Assembly (NCBI GenBank): GCA_017454915.1
Contig: JAFTCC010000062.1
Location: 1-64,000 of the forward strand
Length of the DNA: 64,000 nucleotides
From: Paludibacteraceae bacterium
Lineage (GTDB): Bacteria > Bacteroidota > Bacteroidia > Bacteroidales > Paludibacteraceae
Direction: 5' to 3'
Below are positions 4,318 to 61,640 of the stretch, piece by piece. Position numbers and translations under genes: made by a program. The notes beneath the pieces are model-generated. The model saw only the letters and a program-made list of their open reading frames with translations, was not told where the DNA came from and ran no database searches. Position 1 is the first letter of the stretch. Each line of letters opens with the position of its first letter.

Positions 4318-4342
4318 CTTACTGACGAGAGATAGACGGACT

Positions 4343-4383
4343 AAATTAAGCGGGCACATCATAACGATGTACCCGCTTAATTT
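4343..4383. terminator. Bidirectional terminator hairpin
   Basis: Two 18-nt arms (4343-4360 and 4366-4383, one mismatch) enclose a 5-nt loop between convergent genes. The arms begin with A-runs and end with T-runs, so the hairpin can end transcripts arriving from either side. Confidence 0.8.
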
Positions 4384-4408
4384 ATAGGGTAGTGTGCTCT
4401 GTGGATTG

Positions 4409-6877
4409 TTAGCGGATTTCGTTTCCGAGAACGTCAATCATTTTGCCGTTTGGCAACACTATCACAATCTGTCCGTTGAGCAAAATCTTGTATGGTTTTG
4501 CATTTTGTTGAGCATCGTCTTGCGCCTCGTTTATGCCTGTAATGTCGTATTCTTTAGTAACCGACACAGTCATCACTCCTTCTCCTTCGTTAAGCACGCG
4601 GAGGTATGCGAAGTCGCCGGATGACGTTTGCAACCACACTTTAGCCATGTCCTGCGTTACGGTGAAACTGCCTTTGCGAGCCATAATCTGGTTTCCGTTC
4701 TGGAGAATGTGCTCGTCGGTGTTGGTGAGGTATATGTTGCAGTCGTTAGCGAAAAACAATTCGATGCTTGACTCACCCTCCCAGCTCACCTTGATGTCTT
4801 TGTGTTGCCAGTCGGGCAGGTAAATGGTGTAAACTTGCGTGAACCCGTTAGCCGGCATGACAGTTTCTGATTTGATATCAATCAGTTTGGATTGCGTAAG
4901 GCATGTAGGGGTGTATGGCGCTATGCTGGCCTGCCCTGTTTCAGAGGTGTTGAAGCGCAGATAGACATAGCCGTTGACTGCGTTTCTCATCCATGTTTGT
5001 GTTTGTGCGGCAGTGAGGTAGCATCGCCGCTCAATCCCCTCTGGATTGAAAGCGACGGAGTATTGCGCAAAAGGGTGGTTCTCTCCTTCAAGGCAGTTGG
5101 GCAGCATGTCGATATTCAGATCTTCATTTCCAGACCATGTTATCATGACGTTTTTGCCAGCCCATTCGTTGGCAGACACGCGCAATAAATCTCCGTCAGT
5201 GACGGTGTAGGCCTGCGACGCGTTCATTTGAGTAATTGTGTTGGCGCATTGCCTCACTTCTTCGTCAAGCACGAAGTTGATGGTGTAAAGAGCGACATCG
5301 CCGGACTCGGCAGTAACCATAACCTGACCGAACCCCGGAATATGCTTTGGCTGGTCAATCTCCATCGTTGCTTTTTCGTCATTTAGTGTGGCAGTGATAG
5401 TTGGCAGTGATGTTACCACGAGGCGATAGTTGTATGTGCTTGCGCTGAAGTTATCAATCAGTTTGCCGTCCACGTAGAGTGCGGCAAGGCTATTGTCCTT
5501 TGAGCGTTGCTTGATGAAGTTGATTGTGTAGGTCTGTGTGTTGCCGGCTTCAGCCGTTACTGTTATGACAGCTGTTCCGGGTATTGATTTGGCCTGCTTA
5601 ATATCAACTGTTGATGTGCTCTTACGCGCTTCGGCGGCGACAGTGGGTATTTGACCGTCAGGCACTTCTATGTCGTAGTAGTCTGTTACAGCCGGTGAGA
5701 ATCCCGGAATAGCCGCGCCGTCGATGCTAAGTGACTTAAGCGATGCGTCGGTGTTGCCAGTGCTTTGAGCCACAACTATGCCAGAAAGGTCATATTGCAG
5801 AGAGCCGAAGAAGAGGGTGGTGTAGTAAGGTTCGTCGTATTCGGCTTGGTGCCCGTCGTGTGTTGTCAGCGGACGGTAGCGGGCCGCCTTGATGGCTGCC
5901 GCGCGGTCTGTGCCGGCAGGAAGTACAGCAGTAATTGTCATGGCTTCGTTGTCAACAACGGCCGGCACACCGCCCACGATATAGTCGGTGAGGTTGTCGT
6001 TTATCTCATAGGTGTGGATTTTGAGATAGCCTTCGGAGTTGGCGTACATGTGAACGTAGAGTTCTGGTTGTGCGATGTCGTCAATCACGTCAGCAGTAGC
6101 TTCCGGTGTCATTTTCAGCGCGTGGTCTTCGTCCACAGCCGGCAGGTTGTAACGGCCTCTGACCTTGGCAGAGAAGCGGTCAAAATCGCAGTCTTTTGAT
6201 GTGAGGAACAGCAGGCGTGAGTTCTCGTCAGCCCCTTCCCATGTGATTTCGTACTGTTTGTCGCTCCATTCGCCCAGCGGCCATACGTAGGTGTTGATAG
6301 AGTCTTCGGGTGTGAACAGGAAAGAAGTGTTCATGCCGAGCTGGTTGACATAGTCGCGGCAGCGTGAGTGTACAGAGCCTGACGTGATATTGAGCTCAAT
6401 ATTGCCGTAGCAGGTCAGTTTCACGTACGCCGGTATGGCGTATGTTACGCCTTGTCCGTAGAGCATTTCGTTGTAGTTGCTCGGGAAGGTGTAGGTGTAG
6501 TATATTTTGCCGTTTTCGTCTGTTTTTGCGCGCAGAGTGTTAATCATAGGCAGGTAGAGTCCGTAATCGCCGGCTCTCTGCACCATGCTTGCCACTTTGG
6601 GGTCGTCATACACAGCTTGTCCGTCAACGAATGTGCAAGTGAAGTCCACCTGAATCTGCGGAGCCTGTTGCCCTGCCACGGTAGGGTAGCAGTTGATGGT
6701 CATAGGCAGTGCAGAAGTCATTGCCGTGAACCAGTATTCTCCGGCACGGAAGTTATTGGTGTATTCCGCATCAACGTAGATTGCATTGTCGCATGTGCTG
6801 CCGGCTTGTGCCATCACAGGCATTGACGTAGTCAGCAAAAGCAGTAGTGCTGCCAGATGTGAAATGATTTTTTTCAT
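4409..6877 (-). CDS. Secreted protein with tandem cadherin-like beta-sandwich domains
   Basis: The 822-residue protein has a signal peptide (MKKIISHLAALLLLLTTSMPVMA). Two consecutive cadherin-like beta-sandwich domains (PF12733 type) follow at about residues 380-460 and 465-545; both carry the pattern of a Ser/Leu-rich strand, 'F(S)P...YY', 'IPG...V..TAE.G....Y.INF'. The rest looks like beta-rich extracellular domains. The C-terminus (residues ~795-822, NGQIVIVLPNGKMIDVLGNEIR) is a short Bacteroidales tail type distinct from the T9SS sorting domains of its neighbours. The ATG overlaps the TAA stop of the upstream 1321-residue gene by one base (TAATG), so it is translationally coupled as the last gene of operon B. 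Function is likely surface display or adhesion. Confidence 0.75.
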   Translation of the reverse strand: MKKIISHLAALLLLLTTSMPVMAQAGSTCDNAIYVDAEYTNNFRAGEYWFTAMTSALPMTINCYPTVAGQQAPQIQVDFTCTFVDGQAVYDDPKVASMVQRAGDYGLYLPMINTLRAKTDENGKIYYTYTFPSNYNEMLYGQGVTYAIPAYVKLTCYGNIELNITSGSVHSRCRDYVNQLGMNTSFLFTPEDSINTYVWPLGEWSDKQYEITWEGADENSRLLFLTSKDCDFDRFSAKVRGRYNLPAVDEDHALKMTPEATADVIDDIAQPELYVHMYANSEGYLKIHTYEINDNLTDYIVGGVPAVVDNEAMTITAVLPAGTDRAAAIKAARYRPLTTHDGHQAEYDEPYYTTLFFGSLQYDLSGIVVAQSTGNTDASLKSLSIDGAAIPGFSPAVTDYYDIEVPDGQIPTVAAEARKSTSTVDIKQAKSIPGTAVITVTAEAGNTQTYTINFIKQRSKDNSLAALYVDGKLIDNFSASTYNYRLVVTSLPTITATLNDEKATMEIDQPKHIPGFGQVMVTAESGDVALYTINFVLDEEVRQCANTITQMNASQAYTVTDGDLLRVSANEWAGKNVMITWSGNEDLNIDMLPNCLEGENHPFAQYSVAFNPEGIERRCYLTAAQTQTWMRNAVNGYVYLRFNTSETGQASIAPYTPTCLTQSKLIDIKSETVMPANGFTQVYTIYLPDWQHKDIKVSWEGESSIELFFANDCNIYLTNTDEHILQNGNQIMARKGSFTVTQDMAKVWLQTSSGDFAYLRVLNEGEGVMTVSVTKEYDITGINEAQDDAQQNAKPYKILLNGQIVIVLPNGKMIDVLGNEIR

Positions 6878-12121: not shown

Positions 12122-12883
12122 TTAGTTTTTGATAATGCCCCGCCGGTTATTTTTGACTAAGTTTTTTAATTTTGTTCTGATGAATGGTAGGCATTTGTAG
12201 ATAGCCAGCATAATCAGCATAAGGATGAATGGAGTTTCTCCGACAGGTGTGATTTCTGCGATTTGAATCCATCCGGTACCATTCCAGTACCACCACTGTC
12301 CGTCATGGAAGTCCTTGTCGCCGATATTATGTCCGCCACCTCCTGGTATAGGCAGCCAGGCCTCTTCTTCCTCGTCCCAATAGTTGCCTTTGCCGTCCTC
12401 TTCGCTCTCTCCAGCCACGTAAACGTTCATTCTTGTGGATACGTTGGGTTGGATTTGGTTTGACGCAACGGTGTTGCGGTAGTGGCGTGCACTAAATCCC
12501 TTAATTCGCGAGGCGTTGCCCGACTGCATATACGGGACGTACTGCTTGCCGCCATTGCTGACTCGTGCTGAGGTTTGGTTACCTGTGCTGCGCATAGTTG
12601 GGTAGGTGCTGCCATACGATTTGAAGTTTTGTTTGGCAGTCTGGTACATTTCCCACTTGACACCAGTTGTTGAAGACTTGCGCGCTTTGGTGTAATTAGC
12701 ATCGTAATGCGCATTGTGCTTGAACATGATGTCCACGCTTTTGTTGTGAGTGGTTGGGACGGCAAAATCGCTACACAGCTTGTTGCGCCCTGGACGCATT
12801 TCATACGTTACCGCAACTGCCCTGATAGGTGCGCAGAGCGATAGTACAAGTGTCAACAATAGACACGATTTCATTTTTCTCAT
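12122..12883 (-). CDS. Small exported protein with PVGE-type C-terminal membrane tail
   Basis: The 253-residue protein has an N-terminal signal (KMKSCLLLTLVLSLCAPIRAVA), a polar Asn/Thr/Tyr-rich middle, and an aromatic segment DGQWWYWNGTGWIQI near residues 193-207. The C-terminal tail begins at residue 213: PVGETPF, a hydrophobic stretch, then the basic residues RTKLK and further Lys/Arg. This matches the tail of the 341-residue operon B protein. Its ATG overlaps the stop of the giant 3375-residue gene by 4 nt (ATGA), so the two are coupled. I do not recognise a family. It is plausibly an anchored partner of the giant surface protein. Confidence 0.65.
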   Translation of the reverse strand: MRKMKSCLLLTLVLSLCAPIRAVAVTYEMRPGRNKLCSDFAVPTTHNKSVDIMFKHNAHYDANYTKARKSSTTGVKWEMYQTAKQNFKSYGSTYPTMRSTGNQTSARVSNGGKQYVPYMQSGNASRIKGFSARHYRNTVASNQIQPNVSTRMNVYVAGESEEDGKGNYWDEEEEAWLPIPGGGGHNIGDKDFHDGQWWYWNGTGWIQIAEITPVGETPFILMLIMLAIYKCLPFIRTKLKNLVKNNRRGIIKN

Positions 12884-15800
12884 TTAACTACAATCTTTTC
12901 TACCTTATCGGCTGATCTTAAAATGTACACTCCATCGACGCCTACGCGGAATTCTGCCCTTGTGGCATCGCTTGCTTTAACTACATTAATGAGTTGTCCG
13001 AGTGAGTTGTAACAATTGATATCTTTATTTCTAATACCTTCGATTATGATTGTGCGATTTGCCGAATGTGCTGCCCACTTCTGTTCGGTAACGGGCTCCA
13101 AGTCGGTAGGCTGCGCATAGTGGTTAATCACAGTCTTGAGTAAGAATCGTCCTGACAGTGTGCCTGCATTTGCTTGATACTGATAGTCGTTGAACAGCAG
13201 GTCGGTCTGGCTTCCGCTTTGCGTGTCAATCAAGTAAACATGGTCGAGCCTGTCCATGCTGTGGCTGTCGTCAAGTTTGAAGTTCATTGTTCCGCTTGCG
13301 GGGTTGTAAACTGTGATAGGAATTGCCTGTTCAGCCATCTGGTCGGGCACAGCGGCAAATGCGAGGTCGCCGCACTCAAGTGAAGAGTAGATGCGAGGTA
13401 TAGAAGCCGTCTTCGACATCTTAATCACATCGTATCCGCGCTCATATTCGGGGCTGTACTTAGTCGGATGCAGATAGATGCTGGTCTGGTCGCAGGTTTC
13501 GTTGCTCAAACCCTGTGCCATTTCGTTTTGGGTTCCATACCACAGGCGTATCCACTGTGTCTTAACCGAATTGTTATCTTCATTGCTTTGTGCGCGTCGG
13601 CTGAGACTGCCGTTTTTGAATACCAGTGCCTTTTCTCCGTCTGTTGTTTGATAATAGAACGGTGATGCGGGCTTCATGTTTTCGAGCGGCATTTGGTAAT
13701 ATGTCTCGTTGTCGCTGCTGAGCACAGAAATCTTAATTACCTCGTCAGGTTCGCTGCTCACGGTAGTGGAGTAAACGTTGGTGTAGGGCTGTGCGATGAA
13801 GTTCCAGCCTTGGTCGTAACTCTTGGCGGTGCCTGAATAATTGGTGAGGCTGACCTCGGCGTTGTCAGTAGCGCGTGAAGCGTAGTCGCTTGCTTTGACA
13901 GGGAACATGATTTCGTAGTAGTAGGCTGATGTTGAGATGATGACATAGCCTTTGTTCTTGCTCATCGTGGTGCCTGTAACTGCGTTCCAGTTGCCGCCCA
14001 AACCGTTCTCGGCACGCGCTTGTGAGTCATATTCCATCAGGGCGTAGTGCGAACCATGTGTGGCGTTCTTGCCGTTGGAGAACGTTGTTTTGGTCAAGTC
14101 AACGTTGAACGGGAAGCCGATTTGGTATGCGGCTTCTTTGTTTGCCACAATGCGAGAGTAGAACAGGTTGGTGCAGTTGAGTGTTCCGTTGTCGGTGAGC
14201 ACTGCAGATGCGAATGCTTCGGTGCGGAGCACGAGTTTGTTGACTGTGAGAGTTACACCTGCATTGATTTTCAGTTCTGCTCCTGCCGCCACGTAGATTT
14301 CCTTGACGGCAGCGTCATCTTCAACGGTCAGTGTAGCGCCCTTGTGAACGTAAACGACGCTTTCTTCGTTAGTTGCGCCCAGTGTCGCGCTCGCATTGTA
14401 GATGTGAGGCACGGTGTAGGTGTGGTAACTTTCGAGGTTATCGTTCTTGTCCGTAGCAGAGATGACGATCTTCTGGTCAGGCTCCAATCCGCTGACAGCA
14501 ATTTTCATAGTTCTGTCACCAGCGTTAACCGACTTGTCGTCGCGGTTGGCTTTGGTATATGTGGTGCCGTTATATTTGACTTTCCAGTCGGCTTTTGAAG
14601 CCGGTGAACTATAGCCGTTCATGTTGAGCAGCACGTAACTGCTTGTCCAGTCAACTACGTCCAGAACTTCACCCATTTGCCTTGATGTGGCGGTGAACCC
14701 TGCGGTATATGTCGCGTCTTCTGTTACATTGGCAATAGCAGGTGACCATGTGTTGTTGAAGGCATAGGTGTATTCATCCGTTGTAGTCTTCGTGGGTTCT
14801 GTGCCATTGTAGTACGGTGTCGAGCCATATTCCCACTTGTTGTCTGCAGCAGCTGGGTTGTAGAGCGTGTTACCGTCGCCGTCAACGAAAGTGATGGTGT
14901 ACTTGTTGATGGTCCACTGTGCTGTTATGGTCAATGGTTCTGCAGGCATAGTTTGGTTGTCAACAGACCAGCCGGTGAATGTGTAGCCAGTTTTGTTCAT
15001 TGTGCTGGCGTCAGGATAAACGAGCGTAGTTCCGTATGCCACGTTTCCGGCTGCGGTGTGTGTGGTAGAGGTAGTTGTTCCGCCGTCCCAGTTCCACGTC
15101 AGTTTGTAGTTGTTAACTGTCCACTTGGCGTAGAGGTTGATGTCGTCGGTGTAACCTGTTGCCGCAAGCGATGTTACTTTGCCACTTGTGCAGTCTGATA
15201 CCGTGAACCATCCGCCGAATGTGTAGCCTTCACGTGTCGGGTTTACGAGAGTGGTTAATGTTCCGTAGGTGTGTGTGGTTGGGTGGTTCTCGCCATGCGT
15301 GCCCGAGAAGGCTGCTCCGTTCTGGTCATAATAGGTGATGTTGTAAGTGATTGGAGTCCAGAGTGCGTAGAGCGTGATGGCTGCGGTGTAGTCGGTCGCT
15401 CCCAATGTTGTGAGCGCGGTACCTGTGCAGTCTTCAGATATGAACCATCCTCCGAATGTGTAACCTGTGCGTGTCGGGCTGTCGAGAGGCGTTGCCACTC
15501 CATAGGTGTGAGTGGTAGGATAGCCCTCGGCGTGTGTGCCGGTGAACGTCGCGTTGTCTTTGTTTCTATAAGCTATGTTATATGTCTTAGGAGTCCACAT
15601 TGCATAGAGGTTGATGTCGTCGGTGTAGCCCGTAGCAGCAAGCGATGTTACTTTGCCGCTTGTGCAGTCTGATACTGTGAACCATCCTCCGAAGGTGTAG
15701 CCTTCACGTTCTGGTGTTACGAGTGCAGTTGCTGTTCCGTAGGTATGGGTGGTGGGGTGGTTCTCACCATGAGTGCCGGTGAACGCAACGCCATTTTCGT

Positions 15801-18800
15801 CATAGTAGTTGATGTTGTATGTGTTGGCAGTCCATTGGGCCGTGTATGTTGCGGCTTCAGCAGGCATCTTGGCAGCCGGAGTGGGTTCCCAGCCGTTGAA
15901 GGTGTAGCCGGTGCGCTCTACGGTGGGGGTTGTGATGACATCGTCGTACTTGACGTTGGAGTATGGCGAGCCTGTAGCGTCCACTGCGGCTCCTGTTCCG
16001 GCCACGGTTACTTTACCGCCGTTAAGAGCCCATTTCAGTACGTAGCTTAAACGCGGATATTTGTATTCAATAACCAAAGAACCGTCAGCCAATATCGTTT
16101 TGGTTTGTGCTGTTGGCGAAGAGAAGCCCGTGTATGTTTTGCGGTCAGGCGTTACTGTTGTGGCGGTTGTGCCGGTCAGATTGTCGGTGTCGTCCGGTGT
16201 GTCGCTGTAGGTGCCGTCAAGCAATTGTTTGTAGTGCTTAACCGTATAAGCAGTGTTGGTGTTAGGTGTCCAGTTGGCGTAAACGGTGTATGCCGCAGCA
16301 ATGTCAGCAGCCACTTTGGTTATCTTGCCGCTTGAGCAGTCCGCTACAGAGTACCAGCCCTCGAAAGTGTAACCAGTTTTTGTCGGGTCAACAAGGTTGG
16401 TGGCGGTGCCGTAGGTGTGCGTTGTTGGATAATTGGCGCCGTGCGTGCCTGTGAAGGTTTTGTTGTCTTTATCCTTATATGTGATGTTGTAGGTGCGCGG
16501 TGTCTTGGTATATACTGCGGTATATGTTGCGCCGCCAACTTCAACAGCTGCAATGGCTGGTGTCCAGTGGCTGAAAGTGTAAGTATATTGTGCCGTTGCG
16601 GGACGTGCCGGGTTGGCAGGAGCAGTAGGATTAGCGCCTAAAGCGTAGTCAGTTGTCTTGTGAATCTGTTCGACGCAGTCAGGATCGCCGTCGTTCTGGC
16701 CCCAGCAGTCGCTCTTGAAGATAACTTTGTACTTGATGGTCGTCTGCTTGTACTTGGCTACGTATGTTACGTCTTTCGTAACTGCCGCCAGAGTTTTGGT
16801 CCAGCCTATCCAGTCGTAGGAGTAGGCGTCGGTGCTCTCGCGGTAGGGTTCCTCGGCATTGTTAGGATAAGCGGCCACATCGTTGTAGTTGATTAGCGTG
16901 TCGGCAAGGAACGACATGTCGTAGTCAACGAATGTAATAGTATATTTACGCGGCGAGGCGGTGAAGGTGGCCTTATATGTCGCCGCACCCGTGACGGCGG
17001 TGATTGTTGGGTACCATGTTACGGGAGTGGAGAACTCTTGTGATGCTGTCGGGGCTTTGACGAGGTACTCAGCCGGACATTCTGGTGTTGTTCCGGCCTC
17101 AAACATCGCGGAGTAGAGAACCTTGTTGCTTTCGTCCGTAAAGGTAATCAGGTACTCATATTTTGTTTCCTGAATATGCGCGGTATAAACTGAATCCCCC
17201 AATGCTGGAGGCAGGGTCTCGTTCTTGTCGTAGAAATGCCCCGTGGGTCCGTCCCAGCCTGTCCAAGCGTATGTGGCTGTTGATGTGTTGGCTGGTACTT
17301 TCGGGCTTACGCCGGTATATCTTGGTGATGTGTTATAAATCACATTGGTATATGTGGCAAGCGCAGTGCCGTCGTAGTTTTTCCAAGTTACGGTTACCGT
17401 TCTTGGTTTCCAGTAGCCGCTCGAGGCATCCCATGTGTAGTATCCTCCGTAGTTGTCGAACTGCTCTTGGTTAGCCATATAGTCTCCGGCATAGTCGCCA
17501 GAAGTAACCTTCTCGGCTTCCCACCATGTGCAGCCTGCTGTGTTGACGCTCTTGTCGGCATATACGAACTGACGTGTTCCGTCTTCGCTGTGGTATGCGT
17601 TGTCGTCGGTGTTAGGTTTAACAGCTACCACGTCGCTCGGGTGTGCGAGGTCGTGCGTTCCCGTGCCGTCTGTTCTGGTGAGCAGGCATCCGTTTTCTTT
17701 CACGTTAACCCACTGATAGTCCATGTAGGTGTAAGCGTCACCAGCCACGGTTCCGGTGGTAGGAGTATATGGGTTGGTGGTGTCCTCGTTTTTGAGTTGA
17801 GCGGTTGTGAAATTGAGTGTTCGACGATCGCACTCAGTATTTACGACATGCTGTATTGATGTTGGTGCACCAGCAGCAGCGATGAAACGAACTACACCTG
17901 CGTCCTCGTTAGTGGAGTGGATATTGGCTCCGTGCTCGGTGGTATAATACTGACCTTCGGTAGTGCCGTGCACGAAGATTTCAGCATCAGGCAGAGGGGT
18001 CGTGGTAGGCGGATATTGTGTGGCTCTCGGGTTGGTAGTCCAACTCGGTGAATAAGTAGCATGATAATACCACCTCGAGAAAGTTGTATTGTCAGTTTTG
18101 TAGAACCCGGGCCAGTCTTCATTATCCATCACGAATAAGCGTTTGCCAGAAGATACGGTAAGTTTTCCTAATTTACTGATATTTATTTGGGCTCCCGGAA
18201 TGAGCAATGCATCTTGAGTTACTGTGAATTCACCCTCATTGAGATTGATGGTCATATTGTTTGATACCGGCAGGTAATAGTCGGCTGAATTGACTGTTTG
18301 TCCAGCCAAGGAGAACGAGAACTGTCCGAGTTTAGCCCCTGAGTTAACGGTCCAAATACCTCGATCGGTTGCGGGGTCATATTCTTTCTTAACCCAAGTG
18401 TCTGCGCTTGCGTCTGCCTGGTCCATAAGGAACATTGCGCCAGATGTACCAACAAGTTTGATATCGTTAGCTTGCTGTACACCAATTATAGACACGTTAA
18501 CACCTGAATAACCATACAAAGTAGAACCCGGTCTAAAGAGAATAGGTGCCTCCACGTTTTGTATGAAGTAGTCTGTGACAGGGAAAGCGTGCCAAGTACT
18601 TTTATTGCTCAACATATCTGATGTAGCACTACCACCACGCCAGTAACCAAGCTGGAAACCTTCACGAACAGTAGAGCCGCTCATGGCAGTTATCTCTCCC
18701 TTACCTGTAGTGTAGCCCCAGCAGTTGAGGTTTGAGCCAGACTCGAGTGTTATTTTAGAGCCAGCCACGAGGTGGAGACGTCCGTAGTTTCCGTGTGGAG

Positions 18801-21800
18801 CACCTGTTATAGCAGACCCACCGTTGGCTGCATTTTGCATGGCTGTTGTTTCTATAGTACCATAGACAGTCATGTTGACGCCTTTGTCAAAAGTAAGCAT
18901 CAGGAACTGAACAGGAGCCGGAGTGCTTACCGCTTCACGCGTTGGACGCGTTCCCATTGCTGCCTTACGCGTAAGGCTTTCAGGTACAACAAGTGTTGCT
19001 TTTTCAGGAAGGATGTAGTTACCTTTAGGCAGTGTGTGGTTGCCCACCATGACGATAGAGTAGGCAGTGCCCTGATTGGCGTTGACGAATTGCAGTGCTT
19101 CTTTCAGAGTTTTGTATGCACCAATTTCTGTAGTTCCCTGATATACCCGGCATACCACAGCGCCGGAGATGCCGCTGCCGATAGTGTAGCGGTAGCCTTC
19201 GGTGTATTCGGGTGTTCCTGACAGCACGTCGTTGATGTTCTTGCCTTCTTCAACATATTTAGACAAGTTGGTGTTGACATTGTAAAATCCGCCTCCGAGT
19301 ACCACATAGTTCATCTGGGCATTGCCATGCACGCAGCCGTCAGTGCCGCCCGTGGCCTTGCCCCAGAACTTGCCGTTGTTGACGGTTATCACAGGGCGGG
19401 CCACTACGCTACCCTGTGTCATTTGGGCTGCCATGCCGAGAGCGTATGCCGTCGTGCCTGTGGCTGTGGCAGTGTAATAGCCGCTGTTGATTGTCGCAGT
19501 ACCCGCTATGGCATGGTCGCCGGTGAACGGACCGGATGTGTAGGCGGCTTTCACGGCATTGACATAAATGCCGTAAGCCGTATTGCCTGCGGTGGCGGTG
19601 GCAGTTACAGTATTGTTTGTCGCTTCCAGTTCGCCAATGCATTCAAAGCCCGCAACGCCGGCATATTCTGTGTTGACATTTTGATTGCTGTTGACAGCCG
19701 CCAAACGAGCGTTGACAAAAATGCCGCGCACGGTTTCGGTGCCTGATGCTGTGATGGTAGAGCCTGAAATGGTTGTTTTCCCGGCCTCGATGAACACGCC
19801 AGAACATGTTGTTGTCTTGGCCTCTGCGGTGATTTCGGAATTAGTGATTGTGGTGGGGCCACCGGTAAATACACCATAACATGTTGTGGTGCCGTTGGTC
19901 TGCGCATGGATTTCGGCGTTGGTGATGCTCAACTCGCCGTATGAGTGCGCCACCGTGCCATCCTCGTTGGCGTCAGTTGTTATCGCCGGGCCGTTGAGGC
20001 GCACGCCGTATGCGGTGGAGGTGGCAGATTTTGCTGTGTATGTGCCGCCGTTGATGACGCACTTGGGGCTGACGGCATATTCGCCATACTGATATATGTC
20101 GCTGTATTGCTGGTAGGCAGTTGCAGACCATTTGTTGCTTGTGCTGTCAGACTTAAGGGTTGCCGCAGTCAACTGTCTGCGGTTGTTCCAAATGGACACA
20201 GCATCGGCTTCAGCGCCGGTGCGTGTGGTGGCTGTAACGGTCAGGTTCTTTAGTGTGGCGTTGGCAAAATAGGGGAACGCGGTGTATGCGTTGGTGCCGC
20301 AGTCGAGCACTATACCCATTGCGGTGCTGTTGGCCTCGGCGCTGATTTCGGCAGCCGTAACGTTAAGCGTGCCAGCCACAGCGTAGATACCGTATGCAGT
20401 AGTGGTTGTTGCGTTGGCAGTGAACGTACCACCGGTAATGGTTGTGTTACCACCGGAACTTACCGCGCGGGCGGTTGTCGTTCCCGATGTGGCGATAAAC
20501 TCGCCGCCCTTGATGATAAGAGTGGCATAGCCTTCGGCATTGCCGCCAAGTTTGCATTCACCAGCCACGTTTGTTTCAGAATCGAATGTGGTTTTTGAGC
20601 GTGTTGTCGAGCATGCGGCATAGGCGTTAGTGGTACCCGTTGTGGCGGTGTATTTTCCGCTGTTGATGGTAACGGTGGCTCCGCCGGCGTATTCGCCGTA
20701 GTAATTGGGCTGGACGTTCTGATATACCGTGGCGGCAGAACTTGCCGCGTAAATGCCGTATGCTGTGGTGTAAGTGGTGGCAGTTGCGTTTACTTCGCAG
20801 TCGGTGAGTTCCATCCGCGCAAAGTAGATGGCGCCATGAGTTCCGTTCACGCCGCCGGTGGCATACACACCGTATGCATAATAGTATTTAGCCGTGACGT
20901 CAATCTTGGTGTTCTTAATCTTGATGACGCTGTAAGAGTTGTTTTTCGACTGGTAACTGCCGTAGGCAATAATGCCGTAGGCGTAGCGGCCAAGAGTATT
21001 TACATTAATTGTTGCATTCTCTATTGTGCCGGTTCCGGCAGCCTTGTTGGCGTGCGAGCCGTCGGTGGCAGTCGCCGTGCCCATAGCGGTGTTGGCAACG
21101 TCAAAATATATGCCGTATGCGTCGTATGTGCCGTTCGCGTCCTTGAGGTTGTTAACATTAAGCGTGCCGCCCTTCATTGTCAGCGTGCCATAGTAGCAGC
21201 TGGCAGCCGTGGCATTAGATGATGCCAGCATGCGGATGCCGTATGCGTATCTGCCGGTGGTGGCGGTTGAATTTATTGTGCCGGCGTTGATGTTGACCTT
21301 GCCGTATGCCCTGATGCCATATACCGTGACATTGCCCTCGGCGGTTACCTCGCCGCCGTTGATGGTGAGGGTGGTGGTGTTATTCTTGTTTGATTGTTGG
21401 TCAATGCCGAACGTGTTGGTGTGTCCGTAGGCCTCTACCTTACCGCCGTTGATGGTTATCGTGGTGGCGGCTTTCTGCAGAATGCCGCAGGATCCGTAAC
21501 TTGACTTGACATTGCTTGCATACAATGTTCCGCTCTCGAGAATTAGATTACCGGCTGTTAAGTTAACGCAATAGGCAGTGCCGGAATAGGATCCGTTAAG
21601 ATTCTTAACCGTACCGCCGGTTTTCGAGTCCTTGATGGTCAGCGTCTTGCCTGATTTGTTTATATAAATGATGGAGCCGTTATATGTTGCTGTCAACACT
21701 TTACCGTTCAGGTCAAGGGTGAAAGTGTTGGTCACTGTTTGGTTGGCGTTCAGGCTACCGCCTGTTATATCGCGCAGCACTTGCAGCGTGCAGCCGGCGT

Positions 21801-23007
21801 TGGCGGCGGTGTTGGCCTTTGTCCATGCCGTTGCCCAGTCGCCCTGATAGATGAGCGTGGTGCCGTCGGCGGCTATGACCTTGGCGTCGTCGGTGGCTTC
21901 CGCCTCGGCCTCACCGGTAACGGTAACTGTCGATACCAAACCGCCAACTGAGGTAACGGTCAGTTCCTCAATGGTGGTGCCGGCAGCGTTGTTGGGGTTG
22001 AATGAGTAGCTGACCACAACTTTACAGGTTCCTGCGGAGAAGTCCGGCGTAACGGTATAGCCCGTGACGGAGAATGCTCCCGCGCCGCTGGTGTGGGTGA
22101 ATGCTGGTGTTGTGGGGAAGTCGTCCTCTGCGCCATAGTTGAAGTTGAACTCCGCCGTGCCGGTCTTGGTGGCGTCGTTGGTTGTGGTGAACACGTCAGT
22201 AGCCGTGCCGCCGACATATTCAAGTGCCGGGAAGCTGGCATTGACGGTGCAAGTTTTTGTGCCTCCGCCTGTGCCCTTCGAGGCGAGCGTTATTGTGGTG
22301 GAGTAACTGCGGTTTGCCGCACCATAAGAGCCGCCTCCGTTGAAATTGCCGGTAGCGACAACGTCGGTGCCGTCCATGCTCCAGTTGGTGAGGGTGAAGC
22401 CGTTAGCAGTAGTGTTCTTTGCCGGCGTTGCGTTAAGGTCGGTGGCAAGCGCCTTAAGATATTGTGTGGTGAACCTGACGGTGAACGGATAATCCTCGCT
22501 CGGATTAGTGGGCGTGAGGTTAATAACGGTGTTGTCAACCCCCGTAACACCTACCGGCACGAAAGTGGCAGTGGCAGTGTATGCTTTCGTGCCATTGGCG
22601 GAGGTTGAAGCGTTAAGCGCGACACTATTTGCTGCTCCACTTGTGATTGAGCCATAAACTTTTGTTATGTCTCCAGTGAGTTGAGCATTGTAACCGTCAT
22701 TGATGTCAATCCAATAATAAAAGGTTCTGCTTCCGCCTGATGTGGTTGTGGCGTCACTCGTGACAACCGTACCGGGATTAGCCGCTGGCTTGGTGCTGGT
22801 TTTTGCCACGTACACCGAGCCGGCGCCAGTGGGTTTGTTGTTGGCTTCGCTGATTTTCAAGCTCGCGTAGTAGTTAGAGCTCAACGACCACGCATCACTA
22901 ATGCCCAGCCCAAGCATCAACAGTATGGAAACCATGAATTTCCACGCTCTAAATCCACGCACGTTCAACCTCGTTGGATTGATACCGTTTTTAACAACAT
23001 CTTTCAT
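12880..23007 (-). CDS. Giant T9SS-secreted beta-helix / InlB-repeat surface protein
   Basis: This 3375-residue protein is probably an adhesin or cell-surface scaffold. The N-terminus has an extended basic region, then a hydrophobic signal (FMVSILLMLGLGISDAWS, residues ~29-46). Residues ~400-1290 carry about 17 copies, counted by eye, of an (A/V/C)YG(I/V)-type turn in segments like TINGGxxTA, consistent with a right-handed beta helix. Residues ~1890-2770 hold tandem InlB B-repeat/Flg_new modules with GYTFGGWF...NLYAxWT. The last ~70 residues form a T9SS sorting domain (INCYNSLGQL ... GVYILRSADKVEKIVVK). It is the first gene of operon A, with a 172-nt leader and a strong promoter. Calling the N-terminal region a beta helix is inference from pattern only. 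Confidence 0.8.
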   Translation of the reverse strand: MKDVVKNGINPTRLNVRGFRAWKFMVSILLMLGLGISDAWSLSSNYYASLKISEANNKPTGAGSVYVAKTSTKPAANPGTVVTSDATTTSGGSRTFYYWIDINDGYNAQLTGDITKVYGSITSGAANSVALNASTSANGTKAYTATATFVPVGVTGVDNTVINLTPTNPSEDYPFTVRFTTQYLKALATDLNATPAKNTTANGFTLTNWSMDGTDVVATGNFNGGGSYGAANRSYSTTITLASKGTGGGTKTCTVNASFPALEYVGGTATDVFTTTNDATKTGTAEFNFNYGAEDDFPTTPAFTHTSGAGAFSVTGYTVTPDFSAGTCKVVVSYSFNPNNAAGTTIEELTVTSVGGLVSTVTVTGEAEAEATDDAKVIAADGTTLIYQGDWATAWTKANTAANAGCTLQVLRDITGGSLNANQTVTNTFTLDLNGKVLTATYNGSIIYINKSGKTLTIKDSKTGGTVKNLNGSYSGTAYCVNLTAGNLILESGTLYASNVKSSYGSCGILQKAATTITINGGKVEAYGHTNTFGIDQQSNKNNTTTLTINGGEVTAEGNVTVYGIRAYGKVNINAGTINSTATTGRYAYGIRMLASSNATAASCYYGTLTMKGGTLNVNNLKDANGTYDAYGIYFDVANTAMGTATATDGSHANKAAGTGTIENATINVNTLGRYAYGIIAYGSYQSKNNSYSVIKIKNTKIDVTAKYYYAYGVYATGGVNGTHGAIYFARMELTDCEVNATATTYTTAYGIYAASSAATVYQNVQPNYYGEYAGGATVTINSGKYTATTGTTNAYAACSTTRSKTTFDSETNVAGECKLGGNAEGYATLIIKGGEFIATSGTTTARAVSSGGNTTITGGTFTANATTTTAYGIYAVAGTLNVTAAEISAEANSTAMGIVLDCGTNAYTAFPYFANATLKNLTVTATTRTGAEADAVSIWNNRRQLTAATLKSDSTSNKWSATAYQQYSDIYQYGEYAVSPKCVINGGTYTAKSATSTAYGVRLNGPAITTDANEDGTVAHSYGELSITNAEIHAQTNGTTTCYGVFTGGPTTITNSEITAEAKTTTCSGVFIEAGKTTISGSTITASGTETVRGIFVNARLAAVNSNQNVNTEYAGVAGFECIGELEATNNTVTATATAGNTAYGIYVNAVKAAYTSGPFTGDHAIAGTATINSGYYTATATGTTAYALGMAAQMTQGSVVARPVITVNNGKFWGKATGGTDGCVHGNAQMNYVVLGGGFYNVNTNLSKYVEEGKNINDVLSGTPEYTEGYRYTIGSGISGAVVCRVYQGTTEIGAYKTLKEALQFVNANQGTAYSIVMVGNHTLPKGNYILPEKATLVVPESLTRKAAMGTRPTREAVSTPAPVQFLMLTFDKGVNMTVYGTIETTAMQNAANGGSAITGAPHGNYGRLHLVAGSKITLESGSNLNCWGYTTGKGEITAMSGSTVREGFQLGYWRGGSATSDMLSNKSTWHAFPVTDYFIQNVEAPILFRPGSTLYGYSGVNVSIIGVQQANDIKLVGTSGAMFLMDQADASADTWVKKEYDPATDRGIWTVNSGAKLGQFSFSLAGQTVNSADYYLPVSNNMTINLNEGEFTVTQDALLIPGAQINISKLGKLTVSSGKRLFVMDNEDWPGFYKTDNTTFSRWYYHATYSPSWTTNPRATQYPPTTTPLPDAEIFVHGTTEGQYYTTEHGANIHSTNEDAGVVRFIAAAGAPTSIQHVVNTECDRRTLNFTTAQLKNEDTTNPYTPTTGTVAGDAYTYMDYQWVNVKENGCLLTRTDGTGTHDLAHPSDVVAVKPNTDDNAYHSEDGTRQFVYADKSVNTAGCTWWEAEKVTSGDYAGDYMANQEQFDNYGGYYTWDASSGYWKPRTVTVTWKNYDGTALATYTNVIYNTSPRYTGVSPKVPANTSTATYAWTGWDGPTGHFYDKNETLPPALGDSVYTAHIQETKYEYLITFTDESNKVLYSAMFEAGTTPECPAEYLVKAPTASQEFSTPVTWYPTITAVTGAATYKATFTASPRKYTITFVDYDMSFLADTLINYNDVAAYPNNAEEPYRESTDAYSYDWIGWTKTLAAVTKDVTYVAKYKQTTIKYKVIFKSDCWGQNDGDPDCVEQIHKTTDYALGANPTAPANPARPATAQYTYTFSHWTPAIAAVEVGGATYTAVYTKTPRTYNITYKDKDNKTFTGTHGANYPTTHTYGTATNLVDPTKTGYTFEGWYSVADCSSGKITKVAADIAAAYTVYANWTPNTNTAYTVKHYKQLLDGTYSDTPDDTDNLTGTTATTVTPDRKTYTGFSSPTAQTKTILADGSLVIEYKYPRLSYVLKWALNGGKVTVAGTGAAVDATGSPYSNVKYDDVITTPTVERTGYTFNGWEPTPAAKMPAEAATYTAQWTANTYNINYYDENGVAFTGTHGENHPTTHTYGTATALVTPEREGYTFGGWFTVSDCTSGKVTSLAATGYTDDINLYAMWTPKTYNIAYRNKDNATFTGTHAEGYPTTHTYGVATPLDSPTRTGYTFGGWFISEDCTGTALTTLGATDYTAAITLYALWTPITYNITYYDQNGAAFSGTHGENHPTTHTYGTLTTLVNPTREGYTFGGWFTVSDCTSGKVTSLAATGYTDDINLYAKWTVNNYKLTWNWDGGTTTSTTHTAAGNVAYGTTLVYPDASTMNKTGYTFTGWSVDNQTMPAEPLTITAQWTINKYTITFVDGDGNTLYNPAAADNKWEYGSTPYYNGTEPTKTTTDEYTYAFNNTWSPAIANVTEDATYTAGFTATSRQMGEVLDVVDWTSSYVLLNMNGYSSPASKADWKVKYNGTTYTKANRDDKSVNAGDRTMKIAVSGLEPDQKIVISATDKNDNLESYHTYTVPHIYNASATLGATNEESVVYVHKGATLTVEDDAAVKEIYVAAGAELKINAGVTLTVNKLVLRTEAFASAVLTDNGTLNCTNLFYSRIVANKEAAYQIGFPFNVDLTKTTFSNGKNATHGSHYALMEYDSQARAENGLGGNWNAVTGTTMSKNKGYVIISTSAYYYEIMFPVKASDYASRATDNAEVSLTNYSGTAKSYDQGWNFIAQPYTNVYSTTVSSEPDEVIKISVLSSDNETYYQMPLENMKPASPFYYQTTDGEKALVFKNGSLSRRAQSNEDNNSVKTQWIRLWYGTQNEMAQGLSNETCDQTSIYLHPTKYSPEYERGYDVIKMSKTASIPRIYSSLECGDLAFAAVPDQMAEQAIPITVYNPASGTMNFKLDDSHSMDRLDHVYLIDTQSGSQTDLLFNDYQYQANAGTLSGRFLLKTVINHYAQPTDLEPVTEQKWAAHSANRTIIIEGIRNKDINCYNSLGQLINVVKASDATRAEFRVGVDGVYILRSADKVEKIVVK
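15121..15820. repeat. Near-identical InlB-repeat DNA modules inside the giant gene
   Basis: The segment starting near 15121 and the one near 15594 are highly similar over about 180 bp. A more diverged copy lies between them. They encode InlB-type modules sharing GREGYTFGGWFTVSDCTSGK-like sequence (given here as a pattern). Such recent duplicates can recombine, so the module count may vary between strains and is prone to collapse in short-read assembly. Confidence 0.75.
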
Positions 23008-25787: not shown

Positions 25788-27212
25788 TCATATAAATAAG
25801 TCGTTTAATGTCAATGTTTTGACAATAGATGCGGAATGTTGGTTCGGCCTTAGCCCGTATGGGGCGATAAATGTGAGGTTTGCTGTCTGGCGGGAGCCGG
25901 TTTCGAAGAGGAAATTCTGCGTCCTGACTTTTAGTTTGTCTGCCTCGTCTTTCTTGATAAGATATGGCTCATGGCCATATTTGATTTCGCAGATGTTGAC
26001 GATTCTGTCCGCGCGGTCAAGTATCAGGTCGATTTGTGACTTGGGTTGCGTCTTTTTGCTGCGCCATGCGTAATACTCCACTGCCATGCCGTTTATGCCA
26101 AGAGCAGTCTTTATCTCCCGTATGTGGTGCATAACAACCTGCTCAAATGCCAGCCCTTGCCATGCCTTCACTGCAGGAGTTTCCACTTTGTGCTCCCAGT
26201 AATTAGGGTTGGTCCTCACCTTGCCCGAAAAATGAAGGTGGAACAGCGAAAACATGTCTGTTAAGGCGTAGAAACACTCGCGTTTGCTGACTTTGGACTT
26301 GTTCCTGACATAATATACACGGATGAAATCGCAGTTGACCAAGTCCTGCAAAATGACCGACATGCGTCCGCTTGTTGTGGCGTTCAACTCCGCCGCTATT
26401 TCGTCGCGTGTCAGCCCCTGTTTATGCTCTGACAGAACCTTGATGATGTTGACGTAGGGCTCCGGCGAGTTGAACAGCGATGAGAACAGCCGCTCAAACT
26501 CCAGTTGCAGCGGGGCATGTTGGGCGAAATATATCCTGTCGATAGCTTGCGCAAAACTTTCGTCTTTTTTCAGCATATTAAGGTAATATGGTATCCCGCC
26601 CAAGGCCATATACGCCTCTACTATCATCTCGCGCTCCCAATGGATGCTTTTGCCCTTCAGGTACTGTTCTGTTTCGGCGAGTGTGAAGGGGCGCAGATAG
26701 ATTTGCGCGGTGAGACGGTTGTGCAGTCCGCCATGGTTGTTAATCAGTTTTTTTATCATCCACGAAGTCGCGCTGCCGCACACGATGAGTTTGACGTTTG
26801 AATGCCTTGATGCCCACGAGTTCCAAAAATGGTCCAGTGCGGCAAGAAAACCTGAACGCGGTGTATCAAAACATGGCAACTCGTCAATGAAAATAATACA
26901 TTTGGATTTTGACGCCACTCTTTCTTTAAGCATATCCTCAAGGTCAAAGAACAGTTCCATCCAGTCGGTGGCAGCCGTGTCGGTTTTCCCGTATTCTTTT
27001 AGCGCATGTCTAAAAACAGTTTTCTGCTCTTCGGCACCGGCATTCAAAGTTCCGGAAACGTAAAATGCAAAACTGTCGTTGAAAAACTCCCTAACGAGAA
27101 ACGTCTTGCCTATCCGCCTCCTGCCATAAATTGCCACGAATTCTGGCTGTGTGGAGTTCATCAGCTCTTTTAGCTGCTGCTGCTCACTCTCTCTGCCAAA
27201 TATTTTAGTCAT
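25788..27212 (-). CDS. AAA-type ATPase with PD-(D/E)XK nuclease-like C-terminus (PF01637/DUF234-like)
   Basis: This ATPase belongs to the archaeal-type ATPase group (PF01637) common in Bacteroidetes and archaea; biological roles are largely unknown. With the start at 27212 (474 residues) the Walker A GRRRIGKT is at 30-37 and Walker B IIFIDE at 106-111. A winged-helix-like segment containing GLTRDEIAAELN follows, and a C-terminal PD-(D/E)XK-like core has Asp395, Glu409 and Lys411 (EIK). The predicted promoter (27236-27266) lies inside the longer reading frame that begins at 27266, which argues for the 27212 ATG. A four-copy palindrome array sits immediately upstream of that promoter. The gene interrupts a set of acyl-chemistry genes and looks like an insertion. 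Confidence 0.85.
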   Translation of the reverse strand: MTKIFGRESEQQQLKELMNSTQPEFVAIYGRRRIGKTFLVREFFNDSFAFYVSGTLNAGAEEQKTVFRHALKEYGKTDTAATDWMELFFDLEDMLKERVASKSKCIIFIDELPCFDTPRSGFLAALDHFWNSWASRHSNVKLIVCGSATSWMIKKLINNHGGLHNRLTAQIYLRPFTLAETEQYLKGKSIHWEREMIVEAYMALGGIPYYLNMLKKDESFAQAIDRIYFAQHAPLQLEFERLFSSLFNSPEPYVNIIKVLSEHKQGLTRDEIAAELNATTSGRMSVILQDLVNCDFIRVYYVRNKSKVSKRECFYALTDMFSLFHLHFSGKVRTNPNYWEHKVETPAVKAWQGLAFEQVVMHHIREIKTALGINGMAVEYYAWRSKKTQPKSQIDLILDRADRIVNICEIKYGHEPYLIKKDEADKLKVRTQNFLFETGSRQTANLTFIAPYGLRPNQHSASIVKTLTLNDLFI

Positions 27213-27235: not shown

Positions 27236-27266
27236 CAAAGTTATGATTTTTTTTTCTATTATGCAA
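27236..27266 (-). promoter_or_regulatory. ATPase promoter
   Basis: On the minus strand TTG (27264-27266), 20 bp, TAACTTTG (27236-27243). The expected start point is near 27230, leaving about 18 nt before the ATG at 27212. Confidence 0.75.
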
Positions 27267-27273
27267 GCAAAAG

Positions 27274-27467
27274 TTTCCAAAAGTCGTGTTTTTATCCTAC
27301 TTTTGGAAAGTTTTCATGGTTAAGGCGTTCCAAAAGTCGTGTTTTTGTCCTACTTTTGGAAATGTTTGATGGCGAAGATGTTCCAAAAGTCGTGTTTTTA
27401 TACTACTTTTGGAAAGGTTTGTGGGCGAAGTCGTTCCAAAAGTCGTATTTTCCTCCTACATTTGGAA
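27274..27467. repeat. Array 1: four palindromes with an exact 53-bp period
   Basis: Four 34-bp units start at 27275, 27328, 27381 and 27434, each exactly 53 bp apart. Each has 10-bp arms TTCCAAAAGT / ACTTTTGGAA (one mismatch in the fourth; 11 bp in the first) around a 14-nt T-rich centre such as CGTGTTTTTATCCT. The 19-bp spacers are related to one another, with a pattern near GTTTGATGGCGAAG. The array begins 8 bp upstream of the -33 element of the ATPase promoter. It contains no reading frame and fills the gap between the ATPase and ACP genes. Confidence 0.93.
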
Positions 27468-27545
27468 CCGTTTGAGGATTTTGCAAAATGAATTATGCAA
27501 AATGCATAAAATTGTGGAAATTGCCGCTAAAGGTTTGGTATTGGG

Positions 27546-27791
27546 CTATTTACATCCATTTCTTTCTATGTAGTCATAGAGATCTTGGAGTGTTACGATG
27601 GCTTTAAGTTCCGGCAGGAGTATGTCACAGCCGAACGTTTTTTGGATATAGTCGGCAGTGGCCGCAGTGTCCACGCTACTCAATCCCAAGTCGCGGCGCA
27701 GTTCGGTGTCCGGCTCAAGCGTGGCGTATTCAATGCGCAGTTCTTTAAGCAAAAAACTATTGGTAAGTGAAATGATGTCTTGTTTAGTCAT
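27546..27791 (-). CDS. Acyl carrier protein
   Basis: The 81-residue acidic helical protein carries acyl groups on a phosphopantetheine arm. The attachment motif is DLGLSSVD at residues 34-41, with Ser39 at the expected position; the usual Asp before it is Ser38. Length and composition are normal for a free-standing ACP. It has its own promoter and is flanked on both sides by palindrome arrays. It sits between a PsiD-like decarboxylase and, beyond the ATPase, an acyl-AMP ligase. This suggests a dedicated carrier for a specialised acyl product, not the main fatty-acid ACP (inferred). Confidence 0.9.
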   Translation of the reverse strand: MTKQDIISLTNSFLLKELRIEYATLEPDTELRRDLGLSSVDTAATADYIQKTFGCDILLPELKAIVTLQDLYDYIERNGCK

Positions 27792-27813
27792 GACTCTTTT
27801 TGTTTTAGCATTA

Positions 27814-27845
27814 CAAAGTTATGCTTTTTTTGGGTGGATTACAAA
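27814..27845 (-). promoter_or_regulatory. ACP gene promoter
   Basis: On the minus strand TTTG/TTG at 27842-27845, about 20 bp, TAACTTTG at 27814-27821. It predicts a leader of about 17 nt. Array 2 begins about 9 bp upstream of the -33 element. Confidence 0.75.
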
Positions 27846-27852
27846 CAAAACT

Positions 27853-27939
27853 CCGCCAAAACGAGCGATTTTGTTATCGTTTTGGCGGGATTTGATGGTG
27901 AAAATAAGCCAAAACGAGCGATTTTTTATCGTTTTGGCG
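27853..27939. repeat. Array 2: two palindromes with the same 53-bp period
   Basis: Unit A has perfect 12-bp arms CCGCCAAAACGA (27853-27864) and TCGTTTTGGCGG (27877-27888). Unit B has 10-bp arms at 27908-27917 and 27929-27938. The GCCAAAACGA arms start at 27855 and 27908, exactly 53 bp apart. The spacer contains TTTGATGGTGAA, clearly related to the array 1 spacers, although the palindrome arms differ. The T-rich centre has the same orientation as in array 1. Confidence 0.9.
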
Positions 27940-27952
27940 GAGTTAGCGGCGG

Positions 27953-31189: not shown

Positions 31190-31231
31190 TACTGAAAAGT
31201 TGCTAAAAGTCATTTTAGCAACTTTTCAGTA
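31190..31231. repeat. Perfect 19-bp inverted repeat containing a stop codon
   Basis: The arms 31190-31208 and 31213-31231 are perfectly complementary around a 4-nt loop. The TAA stop of the GT2-acyltransferase gene (31215-31217) is inside one arm. Neither strand has a strong T-run after it, so it is not a textbook intrinsic terminator, though it may still end transcripts just before the next promoter. Confidence 0.85.
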
Positions 31232-41464: not shown

Positions 41465-41537
41465 GGGGTATTAGCTCATCTGGTAGAGCGCAACACTGGC
41501 AGTGTTGAGGTAAGCGGTTCGAGTCCGCTATGCTCCA
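41465..41537 (+). tRNA. tRNA-Ala (anticodon GGC)
   Basis: The 73-nt cloverleaf has acceptor GGGGTAT/ATGCTCC with G-U pairs, anticodon loop CTGGCAG (GGC, reads GCC), T-loop GTTCGAGTC and discriminator A. It is a single-gene transcription unit. Confidence 0.95.
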
Positions 41538-41580
41538 CAAGAACAACGGCGCACAATGGTGCGCCGTTGTTCTTGTGTGT
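41538..41580 (+). terminator. Terminator of tRNA-Ala
   Basis: Perfect 17-bp arms (41538-41554 and 41559-41575) with a 4-nt loop are followed by T-rich sequence. Confidence 0.88.
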
Positions 41581-45815: not shown

Positions 45816-45863
45816 AAAACTAAACGTCAGCCATGCAAATTAGCGTGACTGACGTTTAGTTTT
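45816..45863. terminator. Bidirectional terminator hairpin
   Basis: Perfect 15-bp arms (45816-45830 and 45849-45863) lie between convergent genes, with A-rich and T-rich outer ends. They serve the esterase gene and the EF-hand protein gene. Confidence 0.85.
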
Positions 45864-61462: not shown

Positions 61463-61640
61463 TTTGGCATTTCTCTCGTTTTTTCGTAACATTGGCTTCG
61501 CCGAAGTTACTGTCACTCGGAAATGCTCAAATAAATTTGGCATTTCTCTCGTTTTTTCGTAACATTGGCATTGCCGAAGTTACTGTCACTCGGAAATGCT
61601 CAAATAAATTTGGCATTTCTCTCGTTTTTTCGTAACTTTG
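61463..61640 (+). repeat. 73-bp tandem repeats carrying promoter elements
   Basis: Two full units (61463-61535 and 61536-61608) differ at only two positions, and a third partial unit (61609-61640) runs into the next gene. Each begins with TTTGGC and, 20 bp later, has TAACATTG in units 1 and 2 but TAACTTTG in unit 3. Within the full units GCATTTC/GAAATGC, GTAAC/GTTAC and GGC-TTC-GCC (GGC-ATT-GCC in unit 2) form nested inverted repeats. Confidence 0.93.
61609..61640 (+). promoter_or_regulatory. Promoter of the DUF6242 lipoprotein gene
   Basis: TTTG (61609-61612), 20 bp, TAACTTTG (61633-61640). The ATG is 8 bp beyond the box, so the leader is only a few nt. Confidence 0.8.

Follow-up and report, generated by a model that had tools for sequence, protein, structure and literature searches.

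A probable self-read operator array beside the gene for the candidate phage-defence ATPase PDC-S27

Why do two arrays of palindromes stand in front of two neighbouring genes, one for an ATPase and one for an acyl carrier protein (ACP), in a Paludibacteraceae bacterium? The window, i.e., the whole 64,000-nucleotide stretch of DNA that was analysed (contig JAFTCC010000062.1), contains array A1 at 27275..27467 on the minus strand, with four palindromes made of eight alternating half-sites. Its units start at 27275, 27328, 27381, and 27434, a period of exactly 53 bp, and each has the layout TTCCAAAAGT-14 bp-ACTTTTGGAA. In the gene sense, the ACTTTTGGAA half-sites are located at 27275-27284, 27328-27337, 27381-27390, and 27434-27443 and the TTCCAAAAGT half-sites at 27299-27308, 27352-27361, 27405-27414, and 27458-27467 (the last with one mismatch). 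Array A2 (27853..27940, minus strand) has two palindromes, 27853-27888 and 27906-27940, which are 52-53 bp apart and contain the half-sites TCGTTTTGGC/GCCAAAACGA at 27855-27864, 27877-27886, 27908-27917, and 27929-27938; a possible fifth half-site with two mismatches is found at 27800-27809. A2 is an orphan array, and the promoter that bears it drives the ACP gene (27546..27791, minus strand).

Both promoters have the -7 box TAACTTTG, at 27236..27243 for the ATPase gene and at 27814..27821 for the ACP gene (both minus strand), 31 and 30 bp, respectively, from the ATG. The TTG of the -33 element (27264-27266 and 27842-27844) is 20 bp upstream of the -7 box in both cases. A1 begins 8 bp and A2 9 bp upstream of the -33 element, and both arrays lie wholly upstream of it with their dyads on one face of the DNA. 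These coordinates, boxes, and offsets agree with the original prediction, which had described two arrays with a 53-bp period at 8 and 9 bp from the -33 elements and had interpreted them as stacked class I activator sites.

The phased half-site scores of A1 (15.3) and A2 (6.0) are far above the maximum of 2.2 seen in 1500 shuffles of local composition, and the arrays are therefore not due to chance. No other tile of the window scored as a phased half-site array. Other repeated elements of the window are a tandem repeat of 73 bp at 61463-61640 (2.4 copies, 97% alike) and near-perfect hairpins of 17-18 bp at 4342-4384, 31190-31231, 41536-41577, and 45816-45863, which are probably terminators; in addition, an ORF of 3375 aa with internal repeats (12880-23007, minus strand) encodes a very large probable surface protein. 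No further A1- or A2-like copy was identified in the bacterium's own genome (a 2.19-Mb MAG, 88% complete). The same result ruled out regulon sites, as well as REP- or MITE-like dispersed palindromes, for which many genomic copies would be expected.

A1 and A2 have a common linker, TTTGATGGYGAARA, and the differences between their stems are compensated (paired) changes, suggesting that the arrays are related yet different in sequence identity. A blastn search of the fetched ATPase loci revealed no relative of either array. Stems that covary between A1 and A2, together with the position of A1 downstream of the ACP gene, are what hairpins acting as RNA (terminators, small RNAs, or mRNA structure) could produce, but no Rfam match was obtained, homologous arrays are also found upstream of divergent or unrelated genes, and the helical-turn spacing and the covariation with a DNA-binding domain described below concern duplex DNA. 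An RNA function is thus hardly credible.

The ATPase gene (25788..27212, minus strand) encodes a protein of 474 aa that is annotated as ATPase_2/AAA+ and matches the PADLOC PDC-S27 profile PDLC04984 over its full length (residues 2-474 of 474; 602.9 bits; E, 1e-181). It is predicted to consist of an AAA+/STAND-like ATPase, a winged helix, and a PD-(D/E)XK nuclease. The AAA+ motifs GRRRxGK and FxDE are intact and invariant, and E357, D395, E409, and K411 are invariant in the nuclease core (25980..26144, minus strand). In the AlphaFold2 model (pLDDT, 91.7), the AAA+ and nuclease domains are accompanied by a winged helix at residues 251-317 (26262..26462, minus strand), for which a homologue has a MarR_2 match and which we propose to be the half-site reader. 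Residues 280-293 (26334..26375, minus strand) comprise an N-cap and the recognition helix, with residues 280-285 placed at the latter, and residue 311 (R; 26280..26282, minus strand) is on the wing. The window ATPase can therefore be assigned to PDC-S27, a candidate phage-defence protein whose anti-phage role is suspected. In the parts of the two papers accessible to us, the same architecture is presented as an abundant defence candidate, with most PDCs called unvalidated (PMC12988326), and arCOG03166 is described as an AAA+ domain fused to HTH and RecB nuclease domains, likely in defence (PMC4158269); those parts say nothing about arrays, private operators, or mobile cassettes. Our search of the accessible literature found no paper on these arrays.

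The best neighbours in a structure search were a Walker-type ATPase (2qen), STAND proteins, and archaeal Orc1/Cdc6 bound to DNA. The last match brings to mind a replication-initiator system of the iteron or ORB type, in which the ATPase would start replication or partition at the array; indeed, haloarchaeal Orc1/Cdc6 genes are known to have adjacent inverted repeats (origin recognition boxes [ORBs]) whose sequence follows the protein family (PMC3528665). However, most copies of the PDC-S27 gene are chromosomal single genes beside unrelated operons, and the unit is only ~1.7 kb long, with up to nine in one genome, and includes a nuclease domain, which makes an initiator very unlikely.

How far does the association between ATPase and array extend? 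The comparison set comprised ~230 nonredundant family members; homologues were fetched from the family (about 80), by a phylum search (15), and from named genomes (80), and nearly all of them proved to have palindromes immediately in front of the gene. Searching 200 family genomes with a covariance model built from the window units gave weak matches, many of them ordinary hairpins; a closer look at the repeated ones uncovered two more ATPase genes. Alternating half-sites were then scored by a fixed scheme in 161 upstream regions (set 1), with 1420 windows from the same loci as controls, and in an independent set of 66 regions, mostly from one genus (set 2). Phased arrays were found upstream of 51.6% of the 161 ATPase genes in set 1 versus 1 of 1420 control windows, and this sole passing control proved to be another array, one that carries the half-site of the ATPase next to it. 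Set 2 scored lower (28.8% of 66 versus 1 of 277 controls). At least one upstream palindrome was present in 198 of 226 nonredundant genes (88%) versus 14% of controls, and about half of the ATPase genes had a single palindrome or a degenerate array only. Upstream palindromes were also identified in the cultured species Segatella hominis, Butyrivibrio fibrisolvens, and Emticicia oligotrophica. The array pattern holds and extends far beyond the window, and the link to the ATPase, originally drawn from adjacency, is now seen across hundreds of homologues.

Single loci showed further variants. One ATPase is found in two species (L094 and L095) with different numbers of array units, indicating that array length varies. 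Locus L111 has a second array with the half-site of its ATPase ~1 kb downstream (4492-4583, gene sense), with a glycosyltransferase-like ORF in between. At L026:1503-1643 (G164:C12), three palindromes with logo-like arms are 52-53 bp apart in a 3-kb locus with no ATPase and form a possible further orphan array. GC-rich palindromes of ~58-64 bp (CTCCCCTAACCCCTCC...) were seen in L024 and L038, two copies in one genome (G173).

Half-sites of the same orientation are 51-54 bp apart, and inverted ones are 23-31 bp apart. The palindromes themselves are spaced by 51-54 bp in 46 of 58 genes and by 63-64, 73-75, 83, or 107-109 bp in the rest, with nothing between; such steps of one helical turn suggest that duplex DNA is read on one face. 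The placement on one face is thus supported by the additional spacings of 63, 74, and 83 bp, and the distance of about five helical turns in a fixed promoter register holds in the window and extends to the homologues. A TAnnTTTG box was present upstream of the ATG in 74 of 83 arrays, mostly 24-36 bp away, with the half-sites phased to it.

The register relative to the promoter bears on the sign of regulation. Were the arrays stacked class I activator sites that recruit RNA polymerase to the ATPase promoter, the location of A1 and A2 exclusively upstream of -33, with their dyads facing the same side, would be accounted for, as would 44 of the 82 homologous arrays with one clear box, which are likewise upstream only. 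Yet 38 of these 82 (46%) extend into the -33/-7 spacer, 14 covering the -7 box, which an activator would not tolerate. As a general rule, the activator interpretation is not supported, and we consider it unlikely. Because 38 of 82 arrays reach the promoter core, repression fits better than class I activation, and the ATPase is probably autoregulated, with repression as the probable sign. A1 itself, lying wholly upstream of -33, would suit a repressor no better than an activator or an upstream nucleoprotein.

A single half-site logo, AGWTTTnGCnn, fits all arrays, and within it the paralogues of one genome differ: the nine paralogues of G062 have nine different arms, and half-site distances measured in other genomes agree with private half-sites for each paralogue. 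For example, residues 280-283 are NNGH with the half-site GATTTCGCCC and of the TTGG type with TTTTGGCCA. The idea of a shared regulatory repeat is not borne out, as each ATPase has its own half-site and the window's genome has no other targets. The strongest covariation was seen between half-site position 6 and residue 280 (Z, 13.5) and between position 2 and residue 311 (Z, 10.1), followed by the pairs 5-280 and 6-281. Among 57 representatives with <60% identity, the pairs 6-280, 2-311, and 4-311 ranked highest of 4290; with 32 representatives, the covariation loses power. When the code trained on the first set was applied to 23 new arrays, position 6 was best predicted by residues 281 and 280 (ranks 1 and 2 of 413) and position 2 by residue 311 (rank 1 of 413); out of sample, the link between position 9 and residue 283 was weaker, and some columns outside the winged helix scored too. 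Sister-pair contrasts were not specific, being confounded by divergence. Whole-protein similarity did not predict half-site similarity (Spearman, -0.02), and in leave-one-out prediction, residues 280-283, 285, and 311 beat random column sets and only slightly beat the nearest whole protein. Since the half-site bases covary with residues 280/281 and 311, the most likely situation is that every ATPase recognises the array of its own gene via the winged helix, for which the evidence is good, if short of proof.

The explanation that we consider probable is that A1 serves as a private operator array for the adjoining ATPase gene, read by the gene's own product, mobile, and autoregulatory. As in an autoregulatory operator, the sites are in register with the gene's own promoter, and the residues of DNA-binding specificity covary with the site. 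From the association, phasing, privacy, and covariation that sequence comparison brought out, we infer direct binding and an oligomer on the array. The winged helix would bind the alternating half-sites, with the N-cap residues 280/281 reading position 6 and wing residue 311 reading positions 2 and 4. Half-sites of the same orientation ~53 bp (five turns) apart on one face could allow several subunits to assemble side by side, beside the promoter and, in many homologues, over it. The outcome would be autoregulation, and the inferred sign is repression, which would keep a potentially toxic nuclease at a low level. Each lineage may have diverged its half-site, so that paralogues would not cross-bind, and array, promoter, and ORF may travel jointly as a mobile unit.

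What, then, is A2? The recurrence at two promoters noted in the original prediction is real, as A2 is located at the ACP promoter, but it is exceptional: no array is found at this promoter in relatives that share the PSD-ACP-ligase cluster, and A2 was therefore rejected as an ancestral ACP control element. Position 9 of the A2 half-sites is G or T. The window ATPase has R at residue 283, and in all 15 cases with R283 this position is A or C. This mismatch suggests that A2 probably belongs to a different, absent ATPase. A2 could thus be a control region of the same kind whose ATPase was lost or was never present and which is now at the ACP promoter, and it may represent the footprint of a departed cassette.

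Array, promoter, and ORF appear to move together as a unit of ~1.6-1.9 kb, judging from sharp homology boundaries. Near-identical ATPase genes (89-99% DNA identity) occur in unrelated contexts, and their cassettes share sequence from the array's outer edge (about -100 to -320) to near the stop codon (stop -15 to +110); in several pairs, the similarity extends from the outermost half-site to 0-27 bp past the stop. One copy is located before murF, where 15 of 15 genus mates have no ATPase match or recognisable array; these sites are unoccupied, but their flanks have diverged too far for a target duplication to be defined. The gap between the ACP and ligase genes is 6-99 bp in relatives and is filled in the window by A1 and the ATPase gene. 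In L250-L252 (G184, G161, and G141), other ATPases (P-loop/DUF4143-like) adjoin the PS-decarboxylase gene and occupy the place of the window's ACP and PDC-S27 genes, and this site is a possible insertion hot spot. In L127, a cassette with the half-site ATTCCGCTA is seemingly nested between pieces of an array of another type (TTACGGAGG/TTGCGGAGG) on both sides of the ATPase.

Array-containing repeats flank the gene in 70 of 263 loci (27%), 68 of them direct and 2 inverted, and the downstream copy often begins at the first base after the stop. Given these numbers and the 193 loci with no such repeats, a transposon with terminal inverted repeats was rejected. Palindromes of a gene's own half-site recur near it in 22 of 102 loci versus 1.5% for foreign half-sites. 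It is conceivable, though doubtful, that the arrays serve primarily as the recombination or transposition ends of a mobile element with a single gene, at which the ATPase-nuclease would act to excise, circularise, or home, with any effect on the promoter being secondary. The near-identical cassettes in unrelated contexts with their ends near the stop, the repeats on both sides, the recurring own palindromes, and the murF-side copy all speak for it, and an array-promoter-ORF-array layout would be expected from a circle integrating through the array. However, tandem duplication followed by deletion yields the same layout, 73% of the loci have no flanking repeat, direct repeats misfit classical transposon ends, and the fixed promoter register and the overlap with the -7 box point to transcription. 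We offer only tentatively the broader proposal that PDC-S27 represents a new class of mobile elements with a single gene, in which the private promoter-embedded array would be both operator and recombination end, units flanked by direct repeats would spread between genomes while their recognition code changes, and A2 would mark a departed copy.

PDC-S27 and related proteins rank with the most abundant phage-defence candidates reported in rumen bacteria and Archaea, and a DNA target and a mode of control can now be proposed for them. With the covariation between the bases of a private array and named residues, a DNA substrate, a code of recognition, and a mobile unit become available for testing, and private arrays show how many paralogues can share one genome without cross-talk. 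With more than 200 genes, each having its own site matched to the reading residues, the function of such a gene becomes accessible to direct tests.

Sites that belong to one protein and travel with an element are familiar from Tn7-type transposon ends, which have multiple transposase sites, and in integrons an attC palindrome lies beside a single-gene cassette. The PDC-S27 unit differs from both in having no DDE transposase or integron integrase, mostly direct repeats, and sites phased to a promoter. The Orc1/Cdc6-ORB pairs resemble PDC-S27 in combining an AAA+ domain and a winged helix with adjacent cognate inverted repeats, but those initiators have no nuclease, their repeats form origins rather than promoter-phased 53-bp arrays, and they do not form small mobile cassettes. 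RptR, the autorepressor of a phage-defence island, is a separate 9-kDa regulator with one conserved TAGCTA site; it is not the nuclease itself and has no private site per paralogue, but, like the autoregulation proposed here, it acts at a defence locus by binding repeated palindromes in its own promoter (PMC12255303).
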